A stretch of DNA of 64,000 bases from the NCBI GenBank assembly GCA_963575745.1, contig CAUYUJ010017847.1, forward strand, positions 1-64,000, written 5' to 3'. Position 1 is the stretch's first letter. Every line of letters begins with the position of its first letter. Shown here in pieces: positions 23,440 through 52,338 of the stretch. This stretch comes from Prorocentrum cordatum (lineage: Eukaryota > Sar > Dinophyceae > Prorocentrales > Prorocentraceae). Position numbers and translations under genes: made by a program. The notes under the pieces are model-generated. The model was not told where the DNA came from. It did no database searches and worked only from the letters and a program-made list of their open reading frames with translations.

Positions 23440-23473
23440 CGACGACGACGACGACGACGACGACGACGTCGAA

Positions 23474-23505
<32 letters not shown>

Positions 23506-23520: not shown

Positions 23521-23524
23521 AGAG

Positions 23525-23790: not shown

Positions 23791-23794
23791 GGTG

Positions 23795-24574: not shown

Positions 24575-24590
24575 GGGCTGGTGGGGATAC
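24575..24590. repeat. Target-site duplication, 3' copy
   Basis: GGGCTGGTGGGGATAC abuts the T8 run (A8 on the element strand). It matches GGGCTGGTGGGGACAC at 52303-52318 at 15 of 16 positions. Confidence 0.85.
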
Positions 24591-24598
24591 TTTTTTTT
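24591..24598 (-). other. Poly(A) tail of the giant element
   Basis: T8 on the plus strand is A8 on the element strand, between TGT (element 3' end) and the target-site copy. Confidence 0.8.
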
Positions 24599-24866
24599 AC
24601 AGCCGCAGGCGGAAGCGCCAGCGGCGGGAGGTCGCGGGCGGGCTACGGCCGCGGCTAAATTGCCTAACGCGCGCGGGGGCCGCGGATCAGGCGGCGAGGG
24701 GGGCAGCGCCCAGGGCGGCAGCCGACGCGCAATCCAGGGAGACTGAGACAGCCCCAGGACGGGCATGCAACGGTGCATCCAACGGGCCTGAGGACAGGCA
24801 CCGAGGAGACCAAGCGCAGCCAAAATGGCGCGTGAGGCGTTCCCAGAAGTCCAGATGCGGACAGAA

Positions 24867-25975
24867 AGGAACGTTCCCGAGGACAACGAACCACGGAGCC
24901 TGACGGGTACCACAGACTGACTGGGGACATAAGTCCAGCGGGAAACCCTGGCGGTGACACGAAGTCGCGACGCCAGAACGCGCATCCAGGGTGTGGAACG
25001 TGACAGGAGAGCCTTCCACAACTGAGATGCGTCAGCCCAGACCCAACGAGTGGAAGGGCGTCGCAGTGCACGATACACGGTCGACCACGTGGCGTATGCA
25101 CATCCAACGTGTCTCAGCGCTACCAGACCGAGTCGGATAGCACCCGAGGGACGGGACCTTCGAACCCCAGACGCATCCCTCAGAGCCACTTCGATCCAGG
25201 GTCACGGGGAAGGCCGTTCAGCGTTTAGGAGTTCCCGAGGACATCGATCCAGGGAGTCTGACGGGCAACACAGACTGACTGGGGATATAAATCCAGCGGA
25301 AGCCTGAAGGCGAATCCAAGTCGTGACGCAAGAGAGCGCATCCAGAGTGTGGAGCATGATGGCAGGAGAACCTTCCACAACTGAGATGCGTCAGCCCAGA
25401 TCCATCGAGTGGAAGGGCGTCGTAGTGCACGATACGCGGTCGACCACTTGGGGTGTGCACATCCAAAGTGTCTCAGCGCTACCCAAACGAGTCGGATAGC
25501 ACCCGAGGGACGGGGCCTTCGTATACCCTAGACGCATCCCTCAGAGCCACTTCGATCCAGGGTCACGGCGGAAGGACGTTCAGCATTTAGAGTGCCGAGG
25601 ACATCGACCCAGGGAGTCTGACGGGTAACACAGACTGACTGGGGACATAAGTCCAGCGGAAAAACCTGACGGCGGATCCAAGTCGCGACGCAAGGAAGGC
25701 ATCCAGGATGTGGAGCATGATAACAGGAAAGCCTTCCAGAACTGAGATGCGTCAGCCCAGATCCATCGAGTGGAAGGGCGTCGTAGTGCACGATACACGG
25801 TCGACCACGTGGCGTGTGCACATCCAAACTGTCTCAGCGCTACCCAAACCGAGTCGGATAGCACCCGAGGGACGAGACCGTCATATACCCAAGACGCATC
25901 CCTCAGAGCCACTTCAATCCAGGGTGACGGCGGAAGGCCGTGCAGCTTATTTAAAAAAGATCCAGGGAGTGACAG
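24867..25975 (-). repeat. ~360-bp tandem repeats in the 3' region of the giant element
   Basis: The landmark CAGACTGACTGGGGACATAA recurs at about 24910, 25270 and 25630, and the phrase GATCCAGGG-GT-TGACGGG at about 25245 and 25606, with a truncated copy at 25960. Each unit also has TCGACCACGTGG and GAGTCGGATAGCACCCGAGG. Three units plus a partial fill most of the ~1.9 kb between the polyprotein stop and the poly(A). Open frames through it (VDVHTP) are repeat translations. Confidence 0.9.
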
Positions 25976-26493
25976 GCGAGCCGCGACCCACGGACGGCCG
26001 AAAGGAACGCCTGGCGGTGAGACATCTACAGTAAGGCCAGAGGCCACGAGTCCACAGCGGGGGGGCAGTGGACGGTATTGCCGATGCGCGCACCTGAATC
26101 CAAAGGCAGGAGGCGCGCGCCTCGGGTGGAGGGCGGCGGAGCGCTGCGATTGAGAAGCCCACGGCGCGGCCCGGTGCAGCGCCAGCTGGGAATTAGGAAG
26201 TGAAACCGACGGCGAGGAGCGGGAGAGCCTTGCGGCGAGAGGGCTGCGGCCAGCGAGGGAGAAAGGCAGCGAGGCCAGTGGCACGTTGGTCTGCAGGATG
26301 CGCGGCGTCGCGCAGAGAGCATATGGTATTACTGAACGGCACCCCAAGGCCCAAGGGTAAGTGAGAGCGCCGTCCAGGGGAGGGGCTCGGTACCCCAGGT
26401 TGAAGGAGAGAGCGGCGGAGGGCCGCAGTAGCGCGTCGTAAGGCGTCAGTGGCGGCGCGGGCAATGGGGGCGGGGAAGGGGCGGAGAGGGAGC

Positions 26494-27140
26494 TCAGTCT
26501 CCCCAACGGAGTCTCTTTTCATCGCGATCGTCCCGATCATCAGGGCGACCTCCGCCGCGTTTGCCACCCGTCTGCCAGTGATCTTCCCGCCATCCATCGC
26601 GCCACTCGCCCTGCCAACTGCCCCAGGTGCCCCAGGAACTTGTCGCACGGTCGCGCCAGCCCGCATGGTGATAGCCGCCTTTGCCCCTGTCGTCTGTCTG
26701 GGAGTGACGCAGGTAGTTGGCTCTTATCCTATCCCAGTCGATGTCATAGCCCAACCTCGTGTTCATCTCGTAGGCGTCGTACCCGCAGTCCTTCCAGGCC
26801 TCCAGGAAATTGTTGATGTCCGAGGGCGAGTGAAGTTTCGGGTCGGATTTGGGCGCCCTCCATGTAGGGAGCAGGGTACGCTGCGTGTTCGCTGTCCACA
26901 GCGCGCAAAAGACTGCCCCCAGCTCCGACTGAAGCCTGGATATGCGTCTGGCTGGTGTTTCGTCGGGACGTTCGAGTTCGACAGTGCCCAGCCTGACTTT
27001 GTACATTGGGCCGCCTCCGTCAGGGCAGGACAACAGGTTGAGTGCGTCCCGCTCCGATGAACCAGTATGGCGAGGGTGATAGGGCATCTTTCCAGGGGGC
27101 ATCGGGGTGGGCGCAGGAGAGCGCTCGCACCGCGAGCCCC
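26494..27140 (-). CDS. Giant element, C-terminal segment of the polyprotein
   Basis: Last segment before a TGA at 26494. The sequence is not low-complexity in the middle (GPMYKVRLGTVELERPDE; NNFLEAWKDCGYDAYEMN) and ends in a Gly/Arg/Trp/Asp-rich tail (SSWGTWGSWQGEWRDGWRED) of the kind seen in RNA-binding termini. No known domain is recognised. It joins the upstream segment by a change of frame near 27130-27180, where the minus strand has G runs. Confidence 0.6.
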
Positions 27141-28325
27141 CACCGTCGCTGGCCCTCTCGCTGGCCCTCTCGTGCCTCTCGGGGTCTCGGGCTGGACCCC
27201 TTTCTGCGGTCGGCGTAGGGCGTTTCCTGTGCAGCTGAGGTCGCGGTATCCTCGCGGCTGGTGTCAGAGCTGTCCGCCTTCGGGCTTCGCTGCGGCGCAT
27301 CGCCGCCTGAGCGATTGTCATCATCTTCCTGGGCCGACTCTGAGCACGAGGGAGGACGGGCGGGTTCATCTTCTCCGTAATCGGGCTCCATCTTGGTAAG
27401 GGGGATCCCGTCTTCCGCGCCTTCGCCGTTGTCGTAGTCGGGCGGGTCATGGTGGCCCATACGCGAGTCGTTGTCCACTGTGCCCTGCGACCTGTTTGTG
27501 TCGGCCGCCATGGGAGTGTCTGGCCTGTCGTCGCTCACGCCAGTTGGTGGGGACTCCGCCAAGGAGGTGATGGGTGTTGGCTCTGCCGACGCACCGGAGC
27601 TGCCTGCGGCGCTGGGTCCAGGGGGATCGCTTGCTCCGAATGTGGTGAATTGGTCCTGGGCCTTGGCGTCCACGCCAAGCCAAGGGAGAGAATCCCCGAT
27701 GTCCACGGGCGCCTCGAACCCAATCTGGCTGCTGAGCGGGGGAAGGGCAGGAGGTTCTTCTGGACACAGCGATCGGAAGTCGCGATCCAGGATGCGATCC
27801 AGGGTGGCCGGGCCTATGCTCCAGATCGGGACCAGGCAGCGTCGGCAGCACCATGTAGCGTTCCATTGGCGTCCCCACCAGGCCAGGGCACGCTTGTCGA
27901 TGGGGGGCAGCCCGTCTTGCTCGGGAACGCCTATACCTTCCGCCGGCTCCCAAATGAGGCAACCCAAAGGCGGGGAGCCGGGGTTCCAGATAAGGAGCGG
28001 GGCCCCTTGGGGGCAGGTGTCACACCGCGCAGAGTAGGTCTGCGTCTGGGCGGCTTTGATGCCGAAGCGCTCATCCCGGATCCGGAGGATCGGAATGGTG
28101 GTATTGGCACACTCAGGAATCTTCGTGCCCGTCGGCTCCATGAAGAGATCAGCTAACCTCCTCGTGTCCGCCAGCGGGTTGCACCCGTAGCCGAGCGGAA
28201 GGTGCCCCAGGGAAGGGAGGGCGCGCGCCCTGTCATTGCTGGTTCCCGACATCTGCTGCTCATGTTCCCTGACTCTGTCGGCGAGCTTCGTTCCGGCAGG
28301 CGCAGGGAGGCCTTTTGTCCTCGAG
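27140..28325 (-). CDS. Giant element, Cys-pair segment after the helicase module
   Basis: Frame read after a shift at the A4 run near 28318. It contains CDTCPQGAPLLIWNP and a second Cys pair in WWGRQWNATWCCRRCLVP, followed by an acidic Ser/Asp-rich linker (DNGEGAEDG; SESAQEDDDNRSGGD). The cysteine pairs could bind zinc but I cannot name a family. The acidic linker resembles nuclear protein spacers. Confidence 0.55.
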
Positions 28326-29905
28326 GTGGCGTATCCAGCAGACAGCGCAATGCCACCCCATGTTGGCACCGCTGATGTATGCCTGAGGTCTATTCTGAGC
28401 GACCATCTGGCGCGTGCTGTCGGAGATCCAGGTACCCTCGGCGGCGGTCAGATGGTCCTTTCCGCACCTGTCGCACGTGTATATGTTATTCTTTTTCTCG
28501 AGCACGAGCCTCTCATCGGGGATGAAAGGAGGGTCCAGTCTGGTGCCAGGGGCCGGAGCCGGAAGTGGAGGGGCATTGAGGTCGGTCTGGGACAGGGCAA
28601 GTCCGCCGCCGATGTAGGAAAGACCCGCGACCCTGTTGTTGGGACCGAGGGAGGCGTCGGACCCCGCCAGCGCGACGTGTAGCGCACACACTGAGCAGCC
28701 GTGCGTATCCAGGCAGGTCAGAGTTGCTGCCGGGACGATCCGCTCGAGGACGAGCATCGGTGCTTCTAGCTGGAAGTCTTGCCTGTCCATCTCGCTCCAG
28801 GTCTGCGGGCAGCCGGCTTTCTGCGCCGCCGGGTGGTGATGCGCCAATGCCACGAGCTTGGAGATGTGAGGTAGCACCGCTTCGATGCGACCGTGCAGGT
28901 CAGCCAGGTCTTCCAGGGTGAGGCTCCAGGTATTAGCGAATTGGCTTCGGAAGTCCTGGTGGACCTCTTGCCAGGGGACGCAAAACCCCAGAATGGCCTC
29001 GATGACGTCCCCGGCCTGCTCTGCATGAGAGAAAGGCCACAGAAACACTCGTGGTTCACGGAGCATGAGCATCATGACAACCAGAAGCGAACGTGCCTTG
29101 CAGGAATCCATGGGCTGACCGTCGGTGTCTATGATTCCCAGACGGAACTCTTCCATCGAGGAACCGCACCCTCGGAGGATGTCTCCCAACCCGGCCATTC
29201 CAGGGTGCCTCCTGTGTCTGCAGCAGTCCTTGGTAGCGGAGCTCCAAGCCTTGGGGACCTGACGGAAGAGCCCTTTGGGGGTGCACTGGCGGCGCTTCCA
29301 GAGTGTCACACGTCTACCGTTGGCGCGGGGCAACGGAGGAAGGGAGTCATCGGGCACGGCGCAGCTCGCGTCCCCCCAGGGGGTGCCTAGGCCGAGCGAC
29401 CAGACCATTGCTGCCCACAGCGTGTTGTAGACCAGATTGGTCGCAACGAGCCCCAGAGACATGTCAAACAGGAAGCCCAGGTGCGACCAGGCCTTGCGGT
29501 CGAGCATGCCCGGCTGCCGCGGTGCGTTGGCCAGCGTGAATTCGTGAGGGTGCAGCCCGAACATAAGGTAGATGAGCACATGAAAGGCAAGCGTCGAGAG
29601 GATATCGTGGAGCCCTCCCGAGATTAGCTTGCCCAGGATGTCCCAGTCGAAACTCTCCTCCAGGGGTGCGTTATAACGCTCGGCGAAACCGGTAGCCTGG
29701 GCATCGCGCGCTTTCTTCTTGGCGACGTCCAGCTCGTTCTGCCCGTTCTCTCCCTTTGCGACACTGCCCCAGGCGACGGACGAGGGTATCCATGCGGCAA
29801 GGTCCTTGAGTGGGTCGAAGCTCTCGTCGATGTCCAGGGAAAGCCTGCGGCCCACAGGGGCGTGGCCTCGAAACTGGACCCAGAGGCGAGTCAATCCGGG
29901 ACCAG
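28325..29905 (-). CDS. Giant element, segment C-terminal to the helicase, with zinc-finger-like end
   Basis: About 525 residues following helicase motif VI. It has a hydrophobic helical stretch (LSTLAFHVLIYLMFGLHPHE) and ends with a Cys/His cluster (YTCDRCGKDHL, then HCAVCWIRHLEDK) that would fit a treble-clef or PHD-like zinc site. The cluster is cut by the frame shift at 28318: deleting one A from the A4 run joins HLEDK to GLPAPAGTKLADRV. No enzyme family is recognised. Confidence 0.6.
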
Positions 29906-30200
29906 GTGGCGTTGGCAAACATGCGGCCGTCTCCCAGGATCAGGATATTCCGCTTAGCCCTGGTAATTGCCACGTTCAGGCGCTTGGCGTCATCGACGAA
30001 ACCCCAGTTGTAGCTCCCGTTGCTCCGGGTAGTTAACACTATTACGATGTCCGCCTCGCCTCCCTGGCTGGAGTCGATTGTCGTGAGTTTGAGCGCCCCC
30101 GTGCTCATATGCTCGCCCGCAACTTGTCGTAGTCCAGGGAAGTTGGAGCTGATGGCAGTGTTGGCATTATCGTCCTCTCGGAACACCTGTTGCCAGCGCT
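29905..30200 (-). CDS. Giant element, SF1 helicase C-terminal motifs V and VI
   Basis: Reads TTIDSSQGGEADIVIVLTTR (motif V: SxQG and following) and RLNVAITRAKRNILILGDG (motif VI: TRAK), then GRMFANATWSRI. These are the diagnostic end motifs of UPF1/SETX-type SF1B helicases. The segment is out of frame with the Walker A/B part by one base at a GGG run near 30199. The downstream join near 29905 is a further frame change. Confidence 0.85.
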
Positions 30201-31589
30201 GAATGTCCACCCTGTGGCCTTGAGGGGGTTGTCCAGGGCCAGGTGTGTCCTGTCCACCCCGTCCAGGTCCGTCTTTCCCCTTGCCGGGCTGCCCTTCGTG
30301 CCTCCTCTAGTGTTGCGCAGGACGCCGGAGAGGTGAAGAGGACCCTGCGGCCATCCGTCCATGAGAATGGCCGTCTGGAGCTGGTAGCCGACCACGATTC
30401 TGACAGTGGTGCCCCTGTTGAGTTCCGGTAGTAGAGCGCGGACGATGTCCACGGCTTGAGCCGCCTCCGGAAGATTGGCAAAGCCTGGTTGTAGCTCAGA
30501 GGTGACCTCCCAGGAGGGTGTATGAACCATTAGGAAACGGTGCTCGTCTGCGCTTAGCGGCGGGTCCAGCGGTTCAAGAGAGGCGCGGAGGTCACCTTCG
30601 TCGGAATCGGTGAGTCTGGCCAGCTCTGCCAGTCGCCCAGGTTCCCACACGCGAATGTCTCTCCAGGGGATGCCCTCGACGATTGGCCGCTCTCTGAGTG
30701 GATCCAGGATGCCAGACTTCATGCCTTTCCCGTAGTAGGCAGCGTTCGGGAAGGCCAGTAGCTGCGGGTGCATCCGATAGCAGATTGAAAGGTGAACCAC
30801 GGAAGACTCCTGGCCGCGAAGTGCGTGAAACATCCTGTCGAAGATGCTGACGCAGAGCCCTAGGTCGTTCGCCAGTTTGGAGAGCACCGTGGGGGGCAGC
30901 TGGTTCGGGTCTCCGACGAGGACCACGGTCCCCCCGCTGTTGATCAAGTTTACCATGGACATGAGCGCGTGGAGCTCTGTGGCTTGCCCAGCCTCGTCGA
31001 TTACCAGGAGGACGATTTGGGGGCTGTCCTTTTGACCAAGTGCCTCTGACGCCTCGTGCGTAGACATGATTATCCTGGCCTGACGTAGTAGGCTCGCCTT
31101 ATAGGGCCTGAAGCCCTGGCTCTTGTCCCCGTCCTGGAACGGGAAGTCGCCGTGGGCGCTTCTGTAGTGACCTTCGGGTGTAAGGTCGACCAGTGCCTCG
31201 TTGACACGGTCCTTCTTGGCCAGGCGCACGAACTTGTCGGGGAAGCCCGTGTCTTGGTCGAGGCGCTGCTGACGTTGTGCTTCGATCATTGCCAGAGCTG
31301 GTTGGTCGACCGCCGTGTTGGATCCTGCTGCCAGAGCGACCGCGTGTCCAGGGCGTAGGCAGGAGCCCCACATGTCCAGGCAGGCAACTGAGAAGGTGGT
31401 CTTGCCTATTCCAGGGGGTCCGTGCACTAGAACGGCATGGTGGTTCAGGGTGGCCTGAAGGGCAGTGGACGCATCGCCGTTCGGCCTGTGCTTGTCCACA
31501 ATCCTGTGGAGAGTGTCCAGGCTGGGAGTTGGACGCACTCTCTGAAAGACCGAGCCTGTCGCATCTGAGATTTCCTCGTCAGAGAACGC
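30200..31589 (-). CDS. Giant element, SF1B (UPF1-like) helicase, motifs Q to IV
   Basis: Numbering from 31538: Walker A GPPGIGKTTF at 40-49, motif Ia ALAAGSNTAVDQ at 68-79, Walker B VIDEAGQA at 169-176, motif III VLVGDPNQLPPTV at 206-218, motif IV ICYRMHP at 252-258. Motifs V and VI follow in the next segment, so all NTPase and translocation motifs are present. The family unwinds RNA or DNA 5' to 3'. Upstream, the frame is continuous with the preceding segment except for a TAG at 31590-31592; the residues just after it (AFSDEEISDATGSVFQ) still look coding, so the stop looks internal. A helicase 3' of RNase H is not part of standard LINE architecture. Confidence 0.88.
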
Positions 31590-31592
31590 CTA

Positions 31593-32950
31593 TAAGCCTT
31601 GGGGGAGAGGCGGTGCCTGCAGTAGCGTGCCGTCACTGACAGCCTGCGTGTGGTCGGCGTCGGGGACGATCTGTTCCAGGGTGGCTGCCGCCCTGGCCCT
31701 AAGGCTCAGCCCCAAGGAACGCGCGTGTGCCAAGTCGTAGGCCAAAGTCCGTTCCGACCGAGGGGCGTGAACAAAGGCCAGGAGGTACGTCACAGGTGAC
31801 AACTGGTGGCCAAACAAGTCCGCTGGGTTCTGGCGTAGGTAGTAGATTTGGTCCAGCGCCGAGCATTGCCGCCAAAACTGGATGTCAGAAGGGGCTTCAT
31901 CCACGCGATACCAGGGAAGATCGTCGCTCGGGGGGCGTTCTGCCTTGGTCTCGTCTTCGTGAAACTGCCCGCCCTTCCCGTAGTTGTAGACCACGATGCA
32001 CCAGTTTGAGGGGTACCTGGCGTAAGGGCTGAGACCTAGCGCTTGAGCATCCTTCGGGTGGATGTGTCGGCCCAGAGCGGGAGGACACCAAACTGAGACG
32101 TCCGCGATCTTGTCTACTGTCGGGCCCGTGACTGAAATGTACAGCCACCTGCTCTCTTTGTCACGTTCCAGGGGTCTGGATGCAACCTTGTACATTGCGG
32201 GCCACTCCAACAACAGAAATGCTTTCCCGTCGGGTAGGTTCATGGCGTTCCGCAGCCGAAAGGTGTCCAGATCCTCCATGTTCGCGCTGGCGTCGATCCT
32301 GGTGACACGAACTCCGAGAGCGAAGTTGCCCCTTCTGGCGAGATCCTCTCGCGTGGAGCCTGTGCCATCGTCTACCGTCTCGACCGAGGCTTGGCTTTCA
32401 ACCCAGGCGATCCTCCTCAGCGATTGCCCTCGGTCCTGGAGGGAGTAAGGCCATTGTGAGGGGAGTCGAACGGCATTGATCAGCTCCCCGAGCGCTGCCT
32501 TGGGGTGGACCCTGGAGTGCGGGGAGTCCAACGGAACCGAGTAGAGGCTGGCGACCTCTGAGGCTGCCTGCATGGCCAGTGACTCATCCAGGGCGGCTGG
32601 GCTTGTCGGGGAGAGAGCGTCGACCTCCGTTGCGCTGTCCTCGGCCAAATGGACTGTTCGCTGCTGGCAGGGTGGGCCCCAGGCAGGAGGAGGGTGAGTC
32701 GGCGGGGGCGGGGGAGAAGGTACACCGGAGGAGCCTGCGGCCTGTCCAGGTGCGGGGGGTAGCCAGATGGACGTTTTCGCCCGCATCCTGTTCCCGTCGC
32801 CGTCCTCGGACGGCCTGAGGCCCTCTCTTGCGGCGCCCCGCCTGTCCATCATGTGCGTTCGAACCTTCTCCAGGTCCACCCTGGTGCCTCCTGGGCAGTT
32901 ATATGTCGGCGGATCGTCCCAGAGGGGGGAAGGTAATGGGCACATCAGCG
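31593..32950 (-). CDS. Giant element, segment N-terminal to the helicase
   Basis: About 450 residues. The start is Pro-rich (PSPPPPPTHPPPAWGPP). The rest is ordinary globular-looking sequence (FLLLEWPAMYKVASRPLERD; YPSNWCIVVYNYGKGGQFHE). It ends PPLPQGL then TAG. No domain is recognised; position suggests an accessory domain of the helicase. Confidence 0.6.
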
Positions 32951-33472
32951 CATCCTCACGATGCCAGGGAGCGAACGCACACCGTCACGGGTAACCGAGG
33001 GCTGGACAGGTTTCCAGCCGCGCCAGGGCATCCGCGCGACGGGCACCTGGTGGGACGAGTCATAGGGCTCCCCTCCACACATGCACCAAAGATTCCCAGG
33101 AGTGACGAAGGTGTTCGGGTCTGGCCACCCGTCCTGGTACCGTGCCACCGACATGTCGCAGTGCTTTTCGCTTAGGATGTGCACTGTGTCGTCGACGGGC
33201 TCCTGGCAGATCTCGCACCAGCGCCGCCAACCACCGTGGAAATAGACCCAACGCATCCAGGGGCAAAAACGGGCCAGGAAGACGCGCGTGCCCATGCGCA
33301 TTGGCGGCCCGTCGTCACTGTACTGTAGGCAGGAGGGCAAACGACGGAGGGGGCCCTGGTTGTTTTTGGGAATTGTCCAGGGTGGGAGCAGGTCCAGGGT
33401 GGCAGCGGAATGCTGCGCTGTCTTGTGATGGCAGATGAAGCTGCGACCCGACAGGACCTTAGTGTGCCGCGG
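32950..33472 (-). CDS. Giant element, Cys/His-rich segment between RNase H and helicase
   Basis: In this frame the sequence is open from the C7 run at about 33470 and reads SFICHHKTAQHSAATLDLLP, then after LQYSDDGPPMRMGTRVFL the cluster WCEICQEPVDDTVHILSEKH and later LWCMCGGEPYDSSH. The pattern C-x2-C...H...H suggests a zinc finger. Because the frame is open right through the join, RNase H and helicase were probably one translation unit. The TAA at 33459 belongs to the other frame. Confidence 0.6.
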
Positions 33473-34445
33473 CGGGGGGGCGATCAGAGGGGGCGAGAGG
33501 GAGGAGGATTTTCGAGAGCATCAACGAACAGCGCAACCTGGTCCAAGACGCAGAGGTCGACGCCCGCGGCAGGGAAAAGGGGGGGGGGCGGCTGGGTGCC
33601 GTCCCAGACGATCCGGGAAGCGACGGCAAGGTCGCCGGCGCCTCGAAGGGCGTCGGCCCAGGAAACCCCTTAGGTCCTAGTGTGGCAAGACGGTCGGCTG
33701 CCTTGTTGAGGCGACGACGCACAGCCTGCCATGTGAGTGTCCATCCAGCTTCGCTGGCTTGTCGAAGGGCAAAGTCCATCTGTTGTGCCAGGTGGAGCCG
33801 GCGATAGCGCCCAGTGCCGGCTCCGTACCGGATGGCAGCTAGATTGTCGCCGACCACTCGAGCCCCTCGCAGCGTGGTATCAAGGTGGTGGAGCAGGGCA
33901 AGTCCCGCTCTGCACCCGGAAGCCTCCGCCGTCTGCGCATTGTCGCAGCCTGGAAGGGCAACGACGGCGACCGCGACGACGCGCGGGTAGCCGCGGTGCG
34001 GGTCGTGTCTCCAGAGGACAGCTGCCGCCCCGGAGACCTTATCACCTTCCCCAATCCGGCGAGCCCCACCGTCAAAGGTGAGCTCAAAGGGCCATTGGGC
34101 CGCATCGGCAGCGGGGAGCGGGGAGTCTCCGACGGTGATTTCCTCGCCTGCCTCCATGTCCCTGCTAGCTCTGAGCACCAGGGTATGCAGGTCGCAGAGT
34201 CTGCAGTAGCTCTTGGTCCAGAGGGCGCTGGGGGACCTGTCAGTCCTGGGGCAGGGGAACCAACCAACCCCTGGCGGCATCCAGCTGGCCCTGGTGTCGC
34301 CCGTTTGGAGAACGGCGAGCCGATCCCCGCTCCGCGCGAACCTGGTCGCGACGGGGAGGCGCCCGATCTCCCCCCCGGCGCGCGGAGCTTGTTTGCCGAG
34401 ATGCGGACCGGCAGCCCCCTGTATGCGCAAAGGTGTGGGCCTTGG
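33472..34445 (-). CDS. Giant element, RNase H domain
   Basis: RNase HI fold motifs, numbering from 34454: FDGGAR with D128, NAQTAEASG with E167, VVGDNLAAI with D193, and RRRLNKAADRLATLG with D234 as the fourth acidic residue in the usual N-x-x-A-D context. All four acidic residues are present, so this copy's domain could be active. It lies after RT and a zinc linker, as in LINE families that carry RNase H. It degrades the RNA strand of the RNA/DNA hybrid. The downstream join is a C7 homopolymer. Confidence 0.87.
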
Positions 34446-35270
34446 GGATTGCAATGCTGACAGGGGTCCAGCATGGGGGCCCAGACGGCAGTTTCGGCCG
34501 CCGGTGCAGCGGGGGCCTGCCCTTCCTGTATGTCGTCGTCCTCATCACTGTCTTCCTGGAGGTCGGTGTATGGTACGGAGATTCCCTGGACGATGAGTCT
34601 GGCGGCTTCGACGGCCCCGATGGGGGCACAGTCCAGGGTCACACAGTATCTGAAGGAGATCTGGTGTAAAAGGCGGCAGGCAAGCCTCTGGTGCTGACCT
34701 TTGGAGCATATCGCGGTGGGAAGGTCTCTGGGGTGGTCAGGGCCTCTAGCCTTTTCCCAGGCAAGGGCGGCGGCGGGGCACCAGCCCCACACGTGCTCAG
34801 TAGTGGCTTCCCCTAGGCCGCAGAGAGGGCAGGCTCCGTAGAGTCCTTGCCGTATGGGAACGGTGATGTTGCCGAGTTGCCTTCTTCTCTCCGCAGCAAG
34901 TGGGCGCAAGTCCTCTGGCAACGCGTCGTCGCCGAGGAGGGGCCAAAGGGAGGCTTCTCCGGTCCAGGGCCCGAGGCAGGAGTCGCACCAAGCCTGACCG
35001 CAATCCCGTTGCCCAGCGGTGAGCCAGACTCTATTGGCCGCCCTGCCGCAGCCGCACTGGTGGGGGATCCTGTCAGCAATACTTCGCCTACGCGCGGAAC
35101 CGGGCAATCCGTTGGCCAGGACTCGTAGGACGTGGTGCGCCTCGGTGAAAGAGGCGCAGTGCCCGAGGAGGGACCATTCCGCACCGTCTGTTTGAGCCCA
35201 CCTACGCTCGTGGCTGGTTGTGGAGAACCAGGCGCTCACCACGTGTCCGTGGAGCTGCGTCCATGCCGCG
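34445..35270 (-). CDS. Giant element, zinc-binding linker after the reverse transcriptase
   Basis: About 270 residues with CPLCGLGEATTEH followed by VWGWCPAA (C138, C141, H150, C155 counted from 35242), which matches the zf-RVT/CCHC-like module found after the RT of many LINEs, and upstream Cys pairs (HQCGCG; WCDSC). The end of the segment (MLDPCQHCNPQGPHLC) has a further Cys cluster. Joins on both sides change frame. Confidence 0.75.
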
Positions 35271-43500: not shown

Positions 43501-43735
43501 CCCGTGATGCTAGGTGGGGCAGCTCTGGTATTGGCTGGGTGCGAGGTACCGTCCGGGCCATCCGGGAGTGGCCAGAGTCGAGTTAGTAGCTGGGCGCTCG
43601 CCGAGCCAACCGAGGCAGAGAAGAGCCGAAGCGTGCTGTGTCCAGGGAGCCAAGCGTCAGGGCGCATGCTTCGTGGGCGAACTTCTCCAAGCTGCGTCCC
43701 GTGCCTGTCGAAAGTGGTGATCTCGAGGACTTGGG
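40585..43735 (-). CDS. Giant element, large unrecognised segment
   Basis: About 1,050 residues. The N-terminal half is globular-looking (VLQPGEYLLAAIAAGGAVEV; RYNWDMFAAIWILQLANPGS). The middle is Ser/Thr/Pro/Ala-rich and probably disordered. A second folded part has NQVLSVIAWAAAIPQLDKTA and PDAFNAYWSIHPPPGT; the latter resembles SGFDTYWMLMPTRSPED of the 47.5-51.5 kb segment, so the region contains an old internal duplication. The C-terminus is Arg-rich (RRAPRGRN-like). No enzyme motif is seen; ORF1/capsid-like or nucleic-acid-binding roles are possible. Confidence 0.6.
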
Positions 43736-44883
43736 GCTGAACGGTGCGTCTGGGGGGCTTGTCGGACCGAGATGCTGGCCAGCGCGTCCACATGCTCTTG
43801 CAGTTCCCTGGATGTCGCAGCCGCTCTGTGCATGGGGTCCCTGCTGGGTGTGGCAGGGAAGATCCTGACGGTCTGGGCTCCGGTCACTATACAACTGGTG
43901 CCCACGAAGGCTGCCGCCATGGCGTCGGCCGCAGCTAAGCGTATGCGGACTTGCGTCATGTATCTGTAGTCAGAGACGTCTGGGAACCAGGCGTACACGG
44001 TGGAGACCTGCTCGACCGTGCCAGGACAGGTCGTGGTCTCTACGGCTTGCAGGACGTCCTCAGGCCGTGTTTGTCCCATGTCCGCGAGACTCCATCTTAG
44101 GTGAAAGCCATCCTCAGGGTCGGAGAGGCGCACAAGTGAGGGTCCTCCATCCCAGGGTCCTTCCAGGAGGATGCGGCGCGGTCCTAGTGCCATGGAGGAG
44201 GAGGCGCCTCCAAAGACCCGCGGAAGCTCGTCCCGGAGGTGCCTCAAGACGGGGGCGGCAATTCTCTCTGGAGTGGAGATCAGAAGAAGCCCCGTCCCGC
44301 AAATTCCGACTCTGTGTCCCATGGCTCCGGCTGCTGCGAAAGCAACGGAGTGGGCTATGCAGATCGCCCTGGGGGGAACTGGGATGTGCACTGAGTCACT
44401 TGTCTCGTGTGTTCTCCAGACGCACGCCGTCTGGTGGGCCAGCATGGTGGTTTGAGCTACCGCCTGTAGGTTATCCAGGGGGGCACGTATGCCGTTTCCA
44501 CCGCTCGTAGGTCTCGCTGCCCTGCAGCGGAGAACGTGGTGGAAGAGCATCTCGAGTCCCTGGTATCTCAGAAGCTCGTCCCGGGGGAGTTGCACTCTCG
44601 TGGTGACCCAGTCGGCTGCGATCGCCCCGTTGTGGGATCGCCCTAGTTCGTCCCTCCACCTCATGATCTGCGCAACGACACCGTCATTGCCGCTCTCAGG
44701 GGTTAGGATGTGCAGTGCGTCAAAGGTGTCCCCGTTCCTCCCTCCCCAGTGCACAACTATTGACGGGTGTACGATCGTGCACAGTGTCCTGCCCTCTAGG
44801 TCGAATTGAGCGGCGAAGAGTTGCTGCATTGGTGGACTGGGCTTGCCAGTTCGGTAGGGGTGTCCGATCGGCAGGAGATTGAT
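43735..44883 (-). CDS. Giant element, unrecognised segment
   Basis: About 380 residues of well-mixed composition (RRILLEGPWDGGPSLVRLSD; VYAWFPDVSDYRYMTQVRIR; AICIAHSVAFAAAGAMGHRV). The upstream join is at an A4 run: adding one A after GCCAGCAAAA brings YRAASK into frame with NINLLPIGHPYRTG. No domain is recognised. Confidence 0.6.
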
Positions 44884-45565
44884 ATTTTGCTGGCGGCACG
44901 GTATCCCCACTGCGCGTTGGCCAAAGCTGCGAGCTCGACCGGATCCGGTCCTCCGGGGGACGGCACTCCCTCGGTGGCCAGGGCAACGAGACAACATGGG
45001 CTACCCGCGACGGCGGCTGCCGTCAGTGCGGCATCCATGTGCTGAGCAAGGGCGTCTACCACGAGGATTGTTGGGGCGGCATTCCCCTGAGGCTGGTTCC
45101 TGCGCTCCGTGACCACTGCTTTGATCTGCTCCCAGGCGTCTGGGCCTGCAAGGGCAAAAGTGACTCCCGTCTCGTCCGCCACACGCTCGCCAAAACAGGT
45201 GCTTCTGGAAATTACCAGATCGGCTGCAATGTCTTGGACGGCCGCGGTGAGCAGCCCTACAGGGAACCGCCCAGGTCCCCTCTTCCTGGGTTCATCCTCT
45301 GGGGGGTTCCGTCCCAGTAGCAGTGCCCATCCCCCGAAAGTGATTCGCGGGGCCTGCCGCATCCTATCTGCCCTGTTAGTGAAGGGTCGCTGCGGAGGCG
45401 AGGTCCCAGGTCCCTGCGTGCTGCTGTGAGTGTCGTCGGAGTCCATGCCGCTTCCACCGTTTCCACCGTCAGGTGGGGTCCCATCCACCTCCATCGGGGC
45501 ATGACGTGCCTCCTGCGCGGTTCTCCTCTCGGTGACGTGCGCATGAATTCTGCGCATGTCTGAGA
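44883..45565 (-). CDS. Giant element, segment with PMEVD motif
   Basis: Starts with a motif (RHAPMEVDGTPPDGGN ... GTSPPQRPF) that resembles GHAPMDVDNPRNGGD ... GTRPPQRPP at the start of the 46.1-47.5 kb segment, indicating an internal duplication of a linker. The folded part contains NAAPTILVVDALAQHMDAAL and GSPCCLVALATEGVPSP. Function unknown. Confidence 0.58.
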
Positions 45566-46138
45566 GTGTGACGTATGTGTGGGGGGACGTCGGATGGAGA
45601 GTGTTTGTGCTCTGAGGCAGTCCAGATCAGGGGCCAGATGCCTGAGGGCATCGGCTAACTCTTGCAGGCTCAGGTAAGGCTGCAGTGGGAGTAGGGTCCC
45701 GTCGCGGAGCTGCAGGAGGTCTGGTGGTACCGCCACATCAGCGGCGTCGGCATCTCGGGGTCGTCCTGGCATCCTTACGGAGACGCTACCCCTATCATTG
45801 GAGCGGCAAATCGGACAGTTCACTGGGAAGCATCTTCCGTGGGACAGGGCCTGCGCTGGCTGGCTAACCCTCCACGGACTCAGGCATTCGGCGTGGTACA
45901 GGTGGCCGCAAGGCACCAGGGCTTCCGCGAAACCTAAGATGTCTTCGCTGCAGATCGTGCATTGGGGGGTCCCTACCTCCAGGTCCCAGGGAGGCACATC
46001 CACGGCGTCCATGCTTTCCGGAGGGAGCCTGACACTGTCTCCAGGCGGGTGGCTGAGTTGGGATAAGCCATCCCCCAGGCTCTCGATGAGGGCTCTGGCG
46101 GACACACTGGCGTCGAGGTGCGTCAGGCTAGCTCCCCC
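45565..46138 (-). CDS. Giant element, RING-H2 finger segment
   Basis: Counted from 46144 the zinc ligands are C62, C65, C79, H81, H84, C87, C110, C113 (TICSEDILGF, VPCGHLYHAECLSPW, NCPICRS), the C3H2C3 pattern of RING-H2 ubiquitin ligases, at about 45806-45961. RING-H2 proteins recruit E2 enzymes; within a transposon polyprotein this could act on host factors or be a plain structural zinc fold. The upstream join is a G6 run (46136): removing one G puts it in frame with the previous segment. Confidence 0.82.
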
Positions 46139-47540
46139 CTCCACTGAGATGGGATATGAGGGCCTGGATTTGTAAGATGGAGAGGTTGGAGTAGGGAGCT
46201 AGATCGACATCCGGGAAGTCCCCTCGAAGGCAGGCCACGAGGTCTTCCGGCGTGTGCATTTCATTCCTGGTCATCCAGCGGTAGAGAACGTCATAGGGTC
46301 GAGAGTCCAAGGCCCGCACAGTCAGCACTGGTCTGAGGAGTGGGAAGTAGTGTGGGGCCAGGCAGAGCCACAGGGCTCTAGAGATCCAGGGACCCGGTTG
46401 TCGGTCTACCCTATGTTCCAGGAGCATGCTCTGTGCCAGGCACTGTGCCTGGTCGCCGTTGACAGAAGTCCTTTCTCCGGGGGCCGGCATGGTCCCTCTG
46501 CCTGCCTCCTCTTCATCCCGCTGCCTGGCGTCGAGGGTGCGTATGAGTCTGTCCAGGAGCCCTTCTCTGGTGCTGCCAGCCGGTAACCTGCCCTGGGGGG
46601 TAGCGAAGCTTGCCCGGTTGAGCATCTGTCTTATATCCGCGCGCCAAGGCGTGGTTGTGTTTGTGGCTTCCACAGCTTCGGTCTCAACTCCAGGGCGAGC
46701 TCTGCCTTCGCTCGCGGGCCCGTTGATCCTTGGGTTTAGTCTTTGTCCGGTACTGGCCATTTGCGCACGAACCCTCGCTCCAGCTTCCACCGCCTGCCGA
46801 TCCCCTGACAGGATGGCAGTCTGAAGGAAGCCACTTGCATCCAGGTGTAGCATCATTCGCTCCTGGAGCTGGGGTGCAATGTATCCGCCTACCTCGGGGG
46901 CCTCGAACGAGGCACCAGCTGCCCTGGACGCCGTGTCTGCTTCGGACGCAAGCGCTATCTGGGCATCTCTGTAGGAGCTGACGCCCCGTGCTCTCCACCA
47001 GGCTGCTGCGTGGTCAATAATAGTGGTGCTGAGGTTGCAGCTCCTGAAGGCCAGCTCGAGGACGCCTCGACCTCTGTCGGTGGCTGTACCCCATATGAAG
47101 GGGACCAGGATGCTGCTCCAACGCATGCCAGGGGTGACGGAGTTGCTTGCGACCCTCGTCCTGATTCTTCGCACCTCCTCGATGAAAGCATCTCGCTGGG
47201 AACGCTCCGCTTGGGAAAGCCCTTTCTCCAGGAATGGGGGGGGTCTCTGGGGAGGCCTGGTTCCTACCCCTTCTGAGCCCGCGTGATAATCCCCGCCGTT
47301 GCGGGGGTTGTCCACGTCCATGGGGGCGTGCCCCTCACTAGGAAGCCCAGAACGCACTTGGTCCTGACCCCTGCTGTCCGCATCCAGTCGTCTAATGACG
47401 GCGTCCGTGACGAGGTTGCCCAGGGGGGTACCCTGCCCCATTTGGGGATGCATTGGGCGCCATTCAGTGCGTGCGGCTGCTTGCAGCGCCCCCCTTATTA
47501 CTTCTGCTGTTTGCGAGTGTGGGCTGTCCCTATTGTGCCA
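46138..47540 (-). CDS. Giant element, unrecognised helical segment
   Basis: In the same frame as the 47.5-51.5 kb segment, separated only by a TAG at 47541-47543. It carries the PMDVD motif, then SSILVPFIWGTATDRGRGVL, FRSCNLSTTIIDHAAAWWRA, and RALWLCLAPHYFPLLRPVLT. Largely helical in appearance, no known motif. Confidence 0.58.
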
Positions 47541-47543
47541 CTA

Positions 47544-50500
47544 GCGTCTACTGAGATCGGCATGGTCACGTGCGTCGCTTATAGCGCGGTCAAGGTGATC
47601 CCCGCCGATGGTGTACCTTAACCAGCAGAGGTCATCCAGATGCACCAAGGTGTTCGGTCCTATGGGGACGGATGTAGTTGTTCTGCTGGGTAGTGGGGGC
47701 CTCCGGCATGCTGGTGAGTGAGCGCCTGGGCTGCCATGGTAGAGAGGGGGAGGGAACCACCCATCGAGCCGTCCATGGGGGCAGGTCCTAATGACGCGCC
47801 GAATGTTCTGGCAGACATTGAGGGCCCAGGAGCCTGGTGCTGAGCAAAGTAGGGCCAGCGAGATCGTTGCTGTGCTGAGCTGCCAATCGCTCCCGACCTC
47901 TTCGGGGCCTCCTGAGTCTTCGTATGACCAGATTTCAGGTAGGCCTGCAGCGTGGGCCACCATATGCCTCCAGGCTCCCAGGAGTTCACCCACGAACCAA
48001 GTTGGGGTGAAGTCGGAGGGGCCAGGCGGGGTGCGACAGTAAAGGTGCTCGGCGATTGGGGCGTAACGCATGCCCGCTTTGACAAGTTGAGCCAACAGAG
48101 CGGAGTCCAGGAGGTCGAGGGCGTGCCTGTTGGGTGCCTGGCCAGGGCCTGCTCCTGGGTGACTCTGAGGTGAGGCGTCTGCTCGCGGCTCCTCTGGGTT
48201 GTAACTCCAGGGGTTGGCCAGCCTGTGGCAAGTGATGCAGGTTCGCCCTGAGGGGTCTCGGAGCACCCAGGAGCCACAGAAATTGCATCTCTCTCCTGGG
48301 CAGAAGAAATCCCGCAGCCGCAGCCTGTGGGCTGTGGTGGACCATGGCCACACGTTGTCGCTGCTGTCGCTTCCTTGGATGGGGACTCCGGGGATGCCCG
48401 CGGAGCTGGCGGGTATACCCAAGAGGGCCGGCTCCACCCATGGTACTGGGCCTCTACCTGCTTGTCGTCTCGAGTGCACGTCACTCCCCATTCGCTCGAG
48501 GTTCCCTCTCGTGATGGCCCACTGTCTGACGTCCCCATGGTCCGGAAAGTGGACTATATTTTGTCTGCGCCCATGAATTAGGACTCTGTGCGCATGCTCC
48601 ATAGTCTCCGCGGGGTCCTGCGTCCCGTCTGTTCGGTTAGGGCCACCGCTGTGCAGGGGAACAGCATCTTCGGGAGATCTGGTGGGCATGAGCATCCAAT
48701 ATGTGTCAAAACCGCTCGGGAGCTCCATTCCTATGTCGCAGTAGTGTGCAGCGGCGGCCATTGCAACGTACTCGAGCCGTGCTAGCTGTCTCTCAGTCAC
48801 TGAGGGGTCGGCTGCATCCAGTCTTTCCCTTCTTATGCTGGGATCATGAGTAATGCTCGCAAAGCGGAAGGCAAGGACCTGTATTGGGTCCGGTTGAACG
48901 CCTCCCAGACGCCCCTCATAGTCTCCTCCAGTGATGGACCATACTAGCCAAATGTGGTCCAGGATAGCGAGAATCGGAGCTGAAGTGGCGAGCCCCGAGC
49001 AACGCCCAGGGAGAGCTGGCTCTACGGGAGCCGCGCGCATGGGGCTGTCTGCTCGTATCCCTGGGTGGCCTGGGCGGCGCCCCCTCCACGCGTGGTGTAT
49101 GAGGAGCTCTAGGTTGCTAGTCTCACGCGATGTTCTCGGCGCTCCGCGGTTGGGAACCTCGCGCCACGGGCCATCAATGCGCACAAGGTGCCGACGTAGG
49201 GCCCTCATGGTGCCCCCCCTGCCAGAGATCCTGGCGTCCGCAACGCGTGGGCCGCAGATGGGTCCGTCCGCCTCACGGCTGGCCGCCCAGACAGCATTCG
49301 CGTGCCCAGTGGCGTCCAGCCACCGGGCGTGGAGGTCCGCAGCGCGTTGCCCTCTGCTCCTCAGCGTTTGGCTGGGGTCGTCAAGGTCTGAGGGGGCTGG
49401 CGGGTTCTCCATTCGCAACTCGTCCTCCAGGGCAAGGTCTGGAGATGGGTAGGAAGGGGGGTCCGCGAGGACGGAACCCCCGTGAGCCGTGTGGCTAACC
49501 ACGAAGGGCGAGCCGCTGCCCGACCAAAGGAGAGGCCCCCGCTCTCTGTCCTGTGTCGATTGGTCAGGTCCACGGCGGCATCCACCGAACGCGGCGTTAG
49601 GAAACTGAAGCCCAGGGGGCGGGTCGGGAGTGGAAAAGTCGGGAGAAGAGCTGGTGGACGAGGGAGGAAAGGCACGGGGAGATCCAGCCGCCGAGATCGG
49701 AGACCTTGCCCGATCGATCCGATCAACATGAGGAGCGGCCCCGACCGCAGGATCGGAAGCAACCCTGGGGATACGGGGCGAACGAGGAGGCACGTCGGGC
49801 CTTCCATCCGCCGATCCCGGAGAGGGAAAGATGCGATCGATCATCCCTGTGGAGGAAGGCATCCCCCTGCGATCACTGGAGTCAAGGACCCCCGACTCTC
49901 GCTCCACTCCCTCTGGTGGAAGGCCAGGCCCGCTGCCTGCTCCAAGGAAGCGACGGAAGGTCGCACTGTCAGTGTGTATACTGTCGACGCTCTCCCGTCC
50001 CGCCTCTGTGGGGGCTGGGTCACAGGTCATGTCCTCCGTCTGCCAACGGTCCCTAGGCCGAACGCCGTGAGCCTCCCTCTGTATGCCGTCGTCCGATCCA
50101 GGATAGCGACGGAAGGTCGCACGTTCTGTGTGTCTCGCGGGGGAGAGAGCCTCACCCCCTCCACCAGCGTCGTGCCTAGCGCTCTCAACTCCAGTGGGTC
50201 GACTGAAGGCAGCAGCGTTAGGGTGCACACAACTACCGCACCCACGCCCAACCCCCGTGGGGGGACGGTCTATAGCCCTTACTCCCACATCCGACTGATC
50301 CCTGGGTCGAACGCCTTGGGCCTCATCCAGCCTTCCGCCATCCGATCCAGGGTAGCGACGGAAGGTCGCACGATCTGCGTGTATCTCAGGGATGTCTGCA
50401 TCACCCCCTTCTCCAGCATTACGCATGCCGCTCTCGGGTCCATGGGGGCGGTCGAACGCTGCATCGGCGTCGGGATGTGCTTCACAGGTAGAAGGCCTGG

Positions 50501-51545
50501 CTTCACCGCTTAGCTCAACAGCGGGGACGGCCTCACTCAGCGCGGGCACGTCCAGGGGAGGGGGTTCGGCGGTGGGTTGGCGTGAGCCTCCGTGAAGCGG
50601 GCCAGGGCTGCGGGCAGGGACCTGCCCGTTCCTGTTGCCTGTACCCTCGTGAGCGTCCCCTGAGGGTATCAGTTCCCTGAGCTCCCACCCCGAGTCGCCC
50701 TGGCCCATGGGACGACCGCCGAGGACGCTCATCTGCGCCTCGTCAGTTGGCCTAAACGGGACTGGATCCGTGATGGGGTTTGCTTGTGCAAAAGCGAGGC
50801 CCTCTCCCCCCGTAGCCCTGGTGTCGCCTAGGGCCGATCCACTCTGTCCAACAGCGCCTGGAGAGAAAGAAATTAGGCGTCCCGCAGTGGGCATGGGAGC
50901 GGTAGGGGTGAGAGAGGCGGTCGGGTTAGACAGGAGGGCTTCGCGCCCACGGTCATCGCGTCCAGGGGAGCGACGGAAGGTCGCAGCGTCGGAGTGAATT
51001 CTGCCAGCGCTCTCACGACCATTCCCCATAGGGGTTAGCTCCCTGATGCCTTCTTCCAATTCACACCGTTCCCTGGGCTGAACACCGCGGGCGTTCCTCT
51101 GCCCGTCACAGTCCGTTCCAGGGTAGCGACGGAAGGTCGCAAGATCTGTGTGAATTGTGGGGATGGACGCGTTACCCCCTCCTCCGATGCTGCGCCTGCC
51201 GCTCTCAGGTCCCTGAGGGTGGCCTTGCGCGGCATCAGCGTCGATGTGCGCGCCGTAACCTGAGGGCCCGTTTTCTATGCTCAAGCTGCGGAGAGCAGCT
51301 TCGCTCGGCGCAGCCGCATCCAGAGAGGGGGGCGCGGCGGAGCGAGGGCAAAAGCCTATAGGATGCGCGACGGGGCCAGGGCGTCGCGACTGCCCATCTC
51401 CCCCCACTTCGCCTTCGTGGGCGCCTGCTGGGGGTGTCGGGCCCATGCTCCCCCCATCCACGCCGCCGAGGTCCCTGCGTCGGGAGCCGAGGGCGCCTCT
51501 CTGCTCGTCGCCGAACCGTGGGGGGATGAACTGCTTCAGGAGTGG
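47544..51545 (-). CDS. Giant element, N-terminal repeat region and zinc ribbon
   Basis: About 1,330 residues. The first part is Pro/Gly-rich with repeats of the form HTDxATFRRYPGSD (five in this frame) spaced by disordered linkers such as PTAGRLISFSPGAVGQSG. The second part is folded: APILAILDHIWLVWSITGGD, LARLEYVAMAAAAHYCDIGM, and a Cys cluster FFCPGERCNFCGSWVLR then TCITCHRLANPW, a zinc-ribbon-like C-x2-C...C-x2-C. It ends SDARDHADLSRR before TAG. It occupies the place of a LINE ORF1 but resembles no ORF1 class I know. Confidence 0.6.
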
Positions 51546-51825
51546 GGCCGTTGGCCCCCGTAAACCTCGCATCGCCATGTGCGGTCCCGCTATGCCCAGC
51601 GCTGCCTGGAGAAAAGGAAATTGGGCGCCCAGCAGTGGGCATAGGGAGAGTGGGGGTAAGAGAAGGGTAGCTAGGCGGGAGAACCTCATGCCTGCCATTA
51701 TTAAGTCCAGGGTGGCGACGGAAGGTCGCGCTGTCAGTTTGAAACAGAGGGCTGAACGCATCAACCCCGTCTACCACTGCGCGTCCGCCGATCTCGACTC
51801 CAGGGCAGCGACGGAAGGTCGCAAC
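49940..51825 (-). repeat. Seven identical 15-base hairpin repeats encoding ATFRR
   Basis: The plus-strand word GCGACGGAAGGTCGC occurs at about 49956, 50108, 50354, 50973, 51127, 51716 and 51807, always in the same reading frame phase of the repeat (ATFRR). It is an inverted repeat (GCGAC/GTCGC, 5-base loop). In most copies it follows TCCAGGGTA or a close variant. Confidence 0.9.
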
Positions 51826-52092
51826 TTCGGTGTGCATCACAGGGTTCAGGGAATCAACCCCTCCTTCCGATTGGTTGGGGGCCATCGGTCCTCGTGTGCC
51901 CGGAGCATCGGCTGAAGCGCTCCCATTCCAGGGAGCAGGGGGCGAGGGTTGTCCCGGCGGGATGGTGTCCTGAGATCCAGGGCGGGCATGTCCTGAGTCA
52001 TTCAGTCCACAGGTCCCGAGGCCGACGTCAGGTGATGCGGCCCTCGCCCCCGCAGGGATGACAGGATTATCGCCGATCGATCGCTCGGTCAT
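51545..52092 (-). CDS. Giant element, start of the polyprotein
   Basis: ATG at 52092 is the first ATG in this frame downstream of the spliced-leader relic, giving a ~190-nt leader. The segment holds two more ATFRR repeats (TEVATFRRCPG, TDSATFRRHPG) and a linker (PTAGRPISFSPGSAGHSG) nearly identical to one further downstream. Around 51545 the coding potential moves to another frame (TAPLLKQFIPPRFGDEQ). The open frame also extends upstream of the ATG through the leader to 52491, but that part translates non-element repeat. Confidence 0.62.
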
Positions 52093-52284
52093 CCATGGGG
52101 CGGCGGCCCTGATCCGATCTGAGCCGGGGGCCGCTGAGCCCGTCTGCGCGGCGGCAAGGCAGCAGCAATGGCCAGCGCGCCCAGGGGCCGGTGGGGGCCC
52201 AGGGCCGCGGGCCCCCGACGCCGCGTCTGGGCGCCCCCCTGAGCGGCGGGAGACTGCCCCGGAGAGAGCAGGCCCACCAGACGG

Positions 52285-52302
52285 CTTGAGCCAGAGGCTA
52301 CA
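52285..52302 (-). promoter_or_regulatory. Spliced-leader relic at the 5' end of the giant element
   Basis: The minus strand reads TGTAGCCTCTGGCTCAAG immediately after the target-site copy. The 22-nt dinoflagellate spliced leader contains GTAGCC, then ATTTT, then GGCTCAAG. Here the two outer blocks are exact and the middle is TCT. It indicates that the retrotransposed RNA had been trans-spliced, and it marks the full-length 5' end. Confidence 0.75.
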
Positions 52303-52318
52303 GGGCTGGTGGGGACAC
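52303..52318. repeat. Target-site duplication, 5' copy
   Basis: GGGCTGGTGGGGACAC, directly adjacent to the spliced-leader relic; one mismatch to the copy at 24575-24590. Confidence 0.85.
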
Positions 52319-52338
52319 GCGAAGCGTCTAGAATTGTG

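Follow-up and report, generated by a model that had tools for sequence, protein, structure and literature searches.

The 64,000-nucleotide window analysed here (Prorocentrum cordatum, assembly GCA_963575745.1, contig CAUYUJ010017847.1, positions 1 to 64,000 of the forward strand) holds a retrotransposon that lies on the minus strand and has three open reading frames (ORFs), with coding regions for an endonuclease, a reverse transcriptase (RT), an RNase H and a helicase among them. Judged from its sequence, it is very probably a decayed copy of a family of site-specific long interspersed nuclear elements (LINEs) with an APE-type endonuclease, residing in a dinoflagellate nuclear genome. The copy and its boundaries are as follows.

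24591..52302, minus strand: whole retrotransposon copy, 27,712 bp, with the 5' end at 52302 and the 3' end at 24591; both ends are common to copies C6113 and C17100
52303..52318, no strand assigned: target duplication, 5' copy, sense GTGTCCCCACCAGCCC; 15/16 match to 24575-24590, with the same motif at the 5' end of 19/20 further copies
52285..52302, minus strand: dinoflagellate spliced-leader relic, sense TGTAGCCTCTGGCTCAAG; a leader relic stands at the start of 20/20 further copies
24591..24598, minus strand: A8 tail; A-rich tails occur at many other 3' ends and simple repeats at some
24575..24590, no strand assigned: target duplication, 3' copy, sense GTATCCCCACCAGCCC; 15/16 match to 52303..52318

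A preliminary description of this DNA had pointed to a 16-nt direct repeat (gggctggtggggatac at 24575-24590 and gggctggtggggacac at 52303-52318, identical at 15 of 16 positions), to eight A residues at 24598-24591 and to a spliced-leader relic at 52302-52285, and all three are present. A repeat search of the window found no terminal repeats in the element, and the combination of a target duplication, a short A tail (a simple-repeat tail in some copies) and no terminal repeats is that of an APE-type LINE. The genome searched (4,128,499,153 bases in 21,875 contigs, with the 40 best candidates scored in each homology search) contains many copies, one of them collinear from end to end and others partial. 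The collinear copy, C6113:267205-294565, corresponds to element bases 2-27711, covers 27,423 of the 27,712 positions and is 95.9% identical. C17100:22161-49559 extends over element bases 2-27712 and has deletions inside, while C16896, C13661, C19321 and C18543 are partial; among the mapped copies, pairwise identity is 94-97%. In both C6113 and C17100 the homology ends at the two proposed positions rather than running past them, and the collinear copy with its shared ends bears out the earlier proposal of a single, very large non-LTR (long terminal repeat) retrotransposon with defined ends. The 5' truncation typical of LINEs is seen in a relative of 75% identity, which adjoins C17100 directly behind it and starts within the C-terminal domain of ORF1; a crude first-look count gave 441 candidates for the 5' kb and 1623 for the 3' kb.

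The coding regions and domains within these ends are listed from 5' to 3', all on the minus strand, with the ratio of nonsynonymous to synonymous substitution rates (dN/dS) where available.

38914..50742, minus strand: ORF1, ~3944 codons, broken in this copy; stops shared by copies, dN/dS 0.49 against 0.94-0.95 in the other frames
45803..45964, minus strand: RING-H2 finger in ORF1; Pfam zf-RING_2, E 3e-7, above the cut-off, and 3.3e-6 in C6113
39583..40446, minus strand: C-terminal domain of ORF1, earlier called DNMT3-like; no Pfam or PDB match, mean pLDDT (predicted local distance difference test) 39, dN/dS 0.20-0.21
33487..38968, minus strand: ORF2, ~1828 codons, broken in this copy; shared stops, dN/dS 0.42
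37960..38580, minus strand: APE-like endonuclease in ORF2, approximate limits; PF14529, E 1e-4, motif strings present
36258..36602, minus strand: reverse transcriptase in ORF2, stretch matched by RVT_1 with YVDD; E 5.1e-6, homologues at 39-48% identity
33681..34040, minus strand: RNase H (RVT_3) in ORF2; E 2.6e-4, and 0.0011 in C6113
26497..33520, minus strand: ORF3, ~2342 codons, broken in this copy; shared stops, dN/dS 0.38
29929..31466, minus strand: superfamily 1 (SF1) helicase, UPF1/SEN1-like (AAA_11 + AAA_12), in ORF3; E 2.8e-27 and 2.7e-18

This layout rests on six other copies mapped to the window copy, with stops shared among copies told apart from private frame changes; 20 frame changes were marked as unique to the window copy, and the frame numbering was adjusted for 18 of them. 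Successive ORFs overlap by 58 and 37 bases, each lying one frame back from the preceding one, and these overlaps suggest coupled translation or -1 frameshifting. Between copies at 94-97% identity, the coding frames of ORF1, ORF2 and ORF3 give dN/dS of 0.49, 0.42 and 0.38, and the other frames 0.94-1.31. Compared with further copies, the ratio is 0.18, 0.07, 0.15 and 0.25 for the RT and 0.14, 0.19, 0.11 and 0.18 for the helicase, and compared with two divergent copies it is 0.21 and 0.20 for the C-terminal domain of ORF1, the other frames exceeding 1.2 throughout; all three regions are under purifying selection. A third-codon-position excess is found in ORF1-3 in each of the three pairs tested (p 0.0016 to 9e-13), with none in a 3' control stretch and a weak signal in the 5' region (p 0.21, 0.029 and 0.12). 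That 5' region may be a fourth ORF, being open over 588 codons with a dN/dS of 0.64 (other frames 1.10 and 0.82) and a weak codon-position bias. The earlier claim of one-directional coding throughout thus stands for the long minus-strand frames that cross the segment, but a clear coding signal is lacking over about 1.5 kb at the 5' end and 1.9 kb at the 3' end.

Most of the enzymes named in the preliminary description are recovered by profile searches. The SF1 helicase scores far above its Pfam cut-off (E 2.8e-27) and the RING-H2 finger above it (E 3e-7), while the APE-like endonuclease (E 1e-4), the RT (E 5e-6) and the RNase H (E 2.6e-4) each fall slightly under the curated value. Endonuclease and RT share one frame in C6113 (6e-4 and 0.032), as they do in APE-type LINEs. 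The RT has four relatives at 39-48% identity (P0001-P0004) among 7,996 scored candidates, one of which, P0003, carries PF03372 and aligns over the RT; the RT profile finds no match in the PDB at 0.01. ORF1, with its RING finger, is a very large protein, perhaps RNA-binding or host-directed. In the RNase H frame, a SET-like stretch (E 0.3) was set aside, as it was not seen again in C6113.

The helicase is closest among solved structures to SEN1 (1e-19) and UPF1 (1e-15), and its core has, at E<=1e-20, only a 273-aa fragment of 92% identity as a homologue among 7,998 scored; Viral_helicase1 matches it at only 0.0056 and 0.016. The viral contigs yielded no relative, and phages gave one helicase match at E 3e-8. 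The affinity to cellular helicases would fit a functionless passenger, captured once from a host gene, yet this origin of the helicase ORF is very unlikely, given that its dN/dS between copies (0.11-0.19) resembles that of the RT (0.07-0.25) and that all helicase motif strings searched for are present in the window copy.

The DNMT3-like domain is the one part of the proposed enzyme set that fails. No Pfam profile, PF00145 included, matches the domain in the window (E<=0.5) or in pieces of four other copies (E<=10), it has no match among PDB sequences at E<=5 and no homologue at E<=0.001 among 7,996 scored candidates, and the position of the catalytic Pro-Cys reads PGA in 8/8 copies showing the motif, so that the catalytic Cys is missing in each. 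An AlphaFold model of the domain has a mean pLDDT of 39, and a Foldseek search with it returned class-I methyltransferases among a mixture of folds (best E 0.0067, no hit reaching 0.001), which is no evidence for a DNMT because the model is poor. In favor of the DNMT reading are the selection on the domain, the motif I-like string LFDEWG and, in the 75% relative, CCENAAT at the place where ENV would stand. On balance the claim of a DNMT function is rejected, and the domain is possibly a Rossmann methyltransferase-like fold that lacks the catalytic Cys.

The family is site-specific: it inserts preferentially at a single position within a short, abundant repeat. Neither this preference nor the origin of both flanks from a single repeat unit nor the three-ORF layout had been noted in the preliminary description. 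In the first copies, the final 30 bases of the upstream flanks are almost identical, AATTCTTGACGCTTCGC GTATCCCCACCAG, with differing sequence before them, and by eye the 5' ends of 7/7 distinct first copies lie at this motif (C15938 was left out of the count because its flank is the same as that of C17100). Further 5' ends were taken from 20 of the 32 remaining places that homology to the 5' 1 kb had located; 19 of these 20 lie at the motif within 4 edits, and the last adjoins a form that is degenerate by eye. Chance gave 6/2000 on 80-nt stretches, although the stretches tested were 131-151 nt long, for which about 11/2000 is the fairer figure. At the 3' side, seven of the first ten ends lie at the motif, intact or decayed, and 12/20 further ends meet the target rule (chance 29/2000 at the same length). 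Independent insertions at a single point, as in sequence-specific LINEs, are therefore seen, with the 3' ends giving the weaker signal. Genome-wide there are 297 exact 5' junctions and 329 exact 3' junctions, against 0 for a reversed-pattern control; these counts also take in duplicated loci, as well as other families whose head or tail is identical.

The target itself, taken as a 23-mer with at most one mismatch, occurs at 8102 + 8419 = 16,521 sites (control 0). Of 100 listed sites, 20 were sampled, and 18 run on uninterrupted into a repeat; of the other two, L047 holds the last bases of a LINE 3' end and L054 something else. The repeat unit measures about 0.55 kb in one subfamily (L053), where an 11-bp inverted match near the ends is visible by eye, and no transposase or target duplication is shown for it. 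At L053 (C370:350100-351000) the repeat forms head-to-tail arrays with a spacing of ~550 bp. Both sides of the element in the window derive from this repeat.

52303..52335, minus strand: first 33 bp of the target repeat, AATTCTAGACGCTTCGC plus the target duplication; 97% identical to repeat unit 1-33 from L053
23998..24590, minus strand: rest of the same target-repeat unit; 81% identical to repeat unit 18-558

The element is flanked in the window by the halves of a single repeat unit, which overlap in the target duplication, with paralogous sites serving as the empty site in this comparison. It could be argued that such shared flanks do not reflect target choice, and that a LINE already inside the repeat spread together with it by other means. 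Target and LINE are both abundant, and some pairs are duplications, as C15938 and C17100 share flanks and C14690 and C21171 do so at the 3' side. Joint spread is nevertheless extremely improbable: the sequence upstream of the motif varies among the copies read, the motif recurs behind many 3' ends, and most sampled repeats are empty. The target is also used by more than one family, since at L031/L133 (C13956, after 245831) a leader-headed element of another kind, bearing three leader relics, adjoins the 3' end and its target duplication. Downstream of the LINE 3' end, L047 and C15988 (L085) have similar sequence, ACCTAACAGCG..GACTGATA, perhaps belonging to a relative with an extended tail. At C20868 (L087), a leader-like CCGTAACCTTTTGGCTCAAG follows the A-rich tail, with no clear target duplication.

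Each of the 20 further copies starts with a relic of the dinoflagellate spliced leader, for which a reference sequence is given in the available part of PMC8045281. The letters of the AGCC...GGCT stem are intact in 18/20, C14748 being short of a C and C14100 having GGGT. The loop is variable, reading TCT in eight copies, CCTTT in four, CCTCT in two, CTCT in two and other sequences in four (L062-L081); the canonical ATTTT loop occurs in 0/20 copies and in 7 of 100 listed 5' junctions. Tandem relics are present in C19427 (three) and C14748 (two), and would be explained if a leader is added anew in each round. In dinoflagellates, spliced-leader relics also mark host retrogenes, as described in the text available from PMC12014239 and PMC6050394. 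These retrogenes, together with the fact that the leader is supplied by the host, could speak for host-driven retroposition of a long trans-spliced transcript in place of an autonomous LINE. This is highly improbable, in that the transcript itself encodes an endonuclease, an RT under strong selection and an RNase H, and the many copies share both their ends and a preferred target.

The preliminary description had tied RT and helicase to a single unit, and these segments do occur together in other copies. Both are present in the tiled copies C6113, C16896 and C17100, and in ten further copies inspected at the expected places, six have both and four have neither; C18543 retains no more than 3 kb. 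A composite of two or three elements, in which an endonuclease-RT LINE acquired neighboring insertions with the helicase and ORF1, could be read from the very large size and the ORFs in three frames. Helicase and RING domains are rare in LINEs, which also counts for a composite, and insertions at the same place do occur, the 75% relative directly behind C17100 being an example. Even so, a composite has a very slim chance of being correct: it is contradicted by the C6113 copy, which at 95.9% identity is collinear throughout and shares both ends, by the joint presence (six) or joint absence (four) of RT and helicase, and by the deletions or breaks in copies that have only one of the two.

Several observations weigh against the reading as a site-specific, helicase-bearing LINE family. 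Regarding its integrity, C13661 lacks the RT through an internal deletion and C20171 (L130, C20171:79060-80660) lacks it beside a deletion of ~8.4 kb, both keeping the helicase, while C19321 has the RT and ends before the helicase. One of the six copies with both segments, C3224, has an internal gap in the helicase, and of the four with neither at the expected place, three no longer match the element at ~5 kb and one still does. C19321, C16896, C13661 and C18543 pass into other sequence before reaching the 3' end; LINEs would be expected to be truncated at the 5' side instead, and these 3'-side breaks may stem from later rearrangement or assembly. The ORFs are broken in all 5 copies whose ORFs were listed, and the endonuclease, RT and RNase H scores lie slightly below the Pfam cut-offs. 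Selection is not clear-cut in the RING stretch (dN/dS 0.57 against 1.64 and 0.67) or the endonuclease (0.59 against 0.76 and 1.16), and the close pair C13661-C6113 gives 0.68, 1.01 and 0.62. Finally, only 12/20 further 3' ends follow the target rule, where five more resemble the target by eye and three do not; two of the twelve, C14690 and C21171, share a flank and may represent one insertion, and three of the first ten 3' ends (L029, L030 and L032) lie off target.

For a site-specific LINE of this kind, a cycle of insertion can be proposed. The RNA would be trans-spliced by the host, with the spliced leader becoming the 5' end of the element. The ORF2 endonuclease would then cut between AATTCT(A/T)GACGCTTCGC and GTATCCCCACCAG, at the head of the abundant short repeat, the predicted target being AATTCTAGACGCTTCGCGTATCCCCACCAG with a bottom-strand nick between CGC and GTATCC. 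At this nick the RT would prime, begin from the short A tail and copy toward the leader, and RNase H would remove the template. The ORF3 helicase may aid the RT through an RNA of 28 kb and ~63% G+C, or remodel the ribonucleoprotein. Because the target half in front of each copy retains the whole motif, further elements could stack there. Two such arrangements were seen, namely the 5'-truncated 75% relative behind C17100 and the other leader-headed element at L031/L133. It could further be speculated, more tentatively, that the family represents a new kind of LINE with three ORFs and ~8,100 codons, in which a UPF1/SEN1-type helicase is essential to copying and allows a 28-kb G+C-rich template to be copied to its end by target-primed reverse transcription. 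The host's leader, added afresh in every round, would then mark the full-length end, and the kept stem with its variable loop would be the footprint of that step.

Besides its coding regions, the element contains two repeat structures.

49919..51837, minus strand: 61-nt motif present eight times, across the 5' region and the beginning of ORF1 (repeat family D13)
24873..25953, minus strand: three tandem units of ~360 bp in the 3' region, from the repeat search

The observed/expected ratio of CpG is 0.82 in the element (24591-52302) and 0.89-0.90 in its flanks. Against Rfam, nothing in the window, L031 or L034 reached the gathering score. Outside the target duplication, a direct repeat of ~0.85 kb and 91% identity flanks the element at 23166-23999 and 54407-55259 and looks like an older repeat structure. 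It is accompanied by arrays of a 77-bp satellite at ~21.3-22.5 kb and 53.2-54.2 kb, and parts of this arrangement recur near 63 kb. Copia-like remains are found on the minus strand at 55585-57168 and 60150-61625 (RVT_2 E 1.3e-7, zinc knuckle 2e-4).

LINEs are usually 4-8 kb long, and a family more than three times the usual length with its own selected helicase makes the reach of target-primed reverse transcription testable. Its preference for a single motif, offered by a repeat at more than 16,000 sites, would account for how such a large element can spread without breaking genes. With many insertions that differ in divergence, and probably with empty sites in the thousands, a single genome offers a natural experiment, as well as a clear view of host trans-splicing adopted in the life cycle of a LINE.

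Sequence-specific LINEs include Tx1L of Xenopus, R1, R2 and TRAS, and Tx1L inserts into another mobile element. Like this family, Tx1L and the other sequence-specific LINEs have a preferred insertion point in a multicopy sequence; they differ from it in target sequence, host and architecture. Tx1L appears in the reference list of PMC8869645, in the part of that paper available. Closer in host are the LINEs with a DNMT ORF in Symbiodinium (SymbioLINE-Dnmt), which, according to the available text of PMC5890265, resemble this element as dinoflagellate LINEs with an ORF upstream of the endonuclease-RT ORF and with target duplications. Their DNMT retains key residues, as stated by the authors, and they are without poly-A, whereas here no DNMT profile matches, the catalytic Cys is gone, and an A8 tail is accompanied by A-rich tails in many copies; the words helicase and spliced leader are absent from the main text of PMC5890265. 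An SF1 helicase is known from insect LINEs (TRAS/R1 and Jockey; available parts of PMC6338049, PMC4686597 and PMC5563155), of which TRAS is associated with telomeric repeats (PMC6338049). The helicase of the insect elements is viral in origin and forms a C-terminal domain of ORF2 in R1 (PMC6338049), whereas the one described here is UPF1/SEN1-like, best matched by AAA_11/AAA_12, encoded by a separate ORF3 and found in a protist. Dinoflagellate spliced-leader-tagged retrogenes (PMC12014239 and PMC6050394, as far as available) likewise bear a 5' leader relic, and here the tag sits on a LINE encoding its own RT. The initial statement that the element matches no known LINE therefore needs narrowing: a DNMT (PMC5890265) and an SF1 helicase (PMC6338049) have each already been described in LINEs in the accessible text of these papers, but the combination and size were not found in print. 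The element itself was not found in the literature search, which covered the accessible text of open-licence papers, with most subscription titles outside its reach, and the string retrotranspos- is absent from the main text of the P. cordatum genome paper as available (PMC10666404). As far as the searched literature goes, what is new is the joint occurrence, in one LINE, of this size, a separate and selected helicase ORF, a giant ORF1 with a RING finger, a leader-headed start and a repeat as target.

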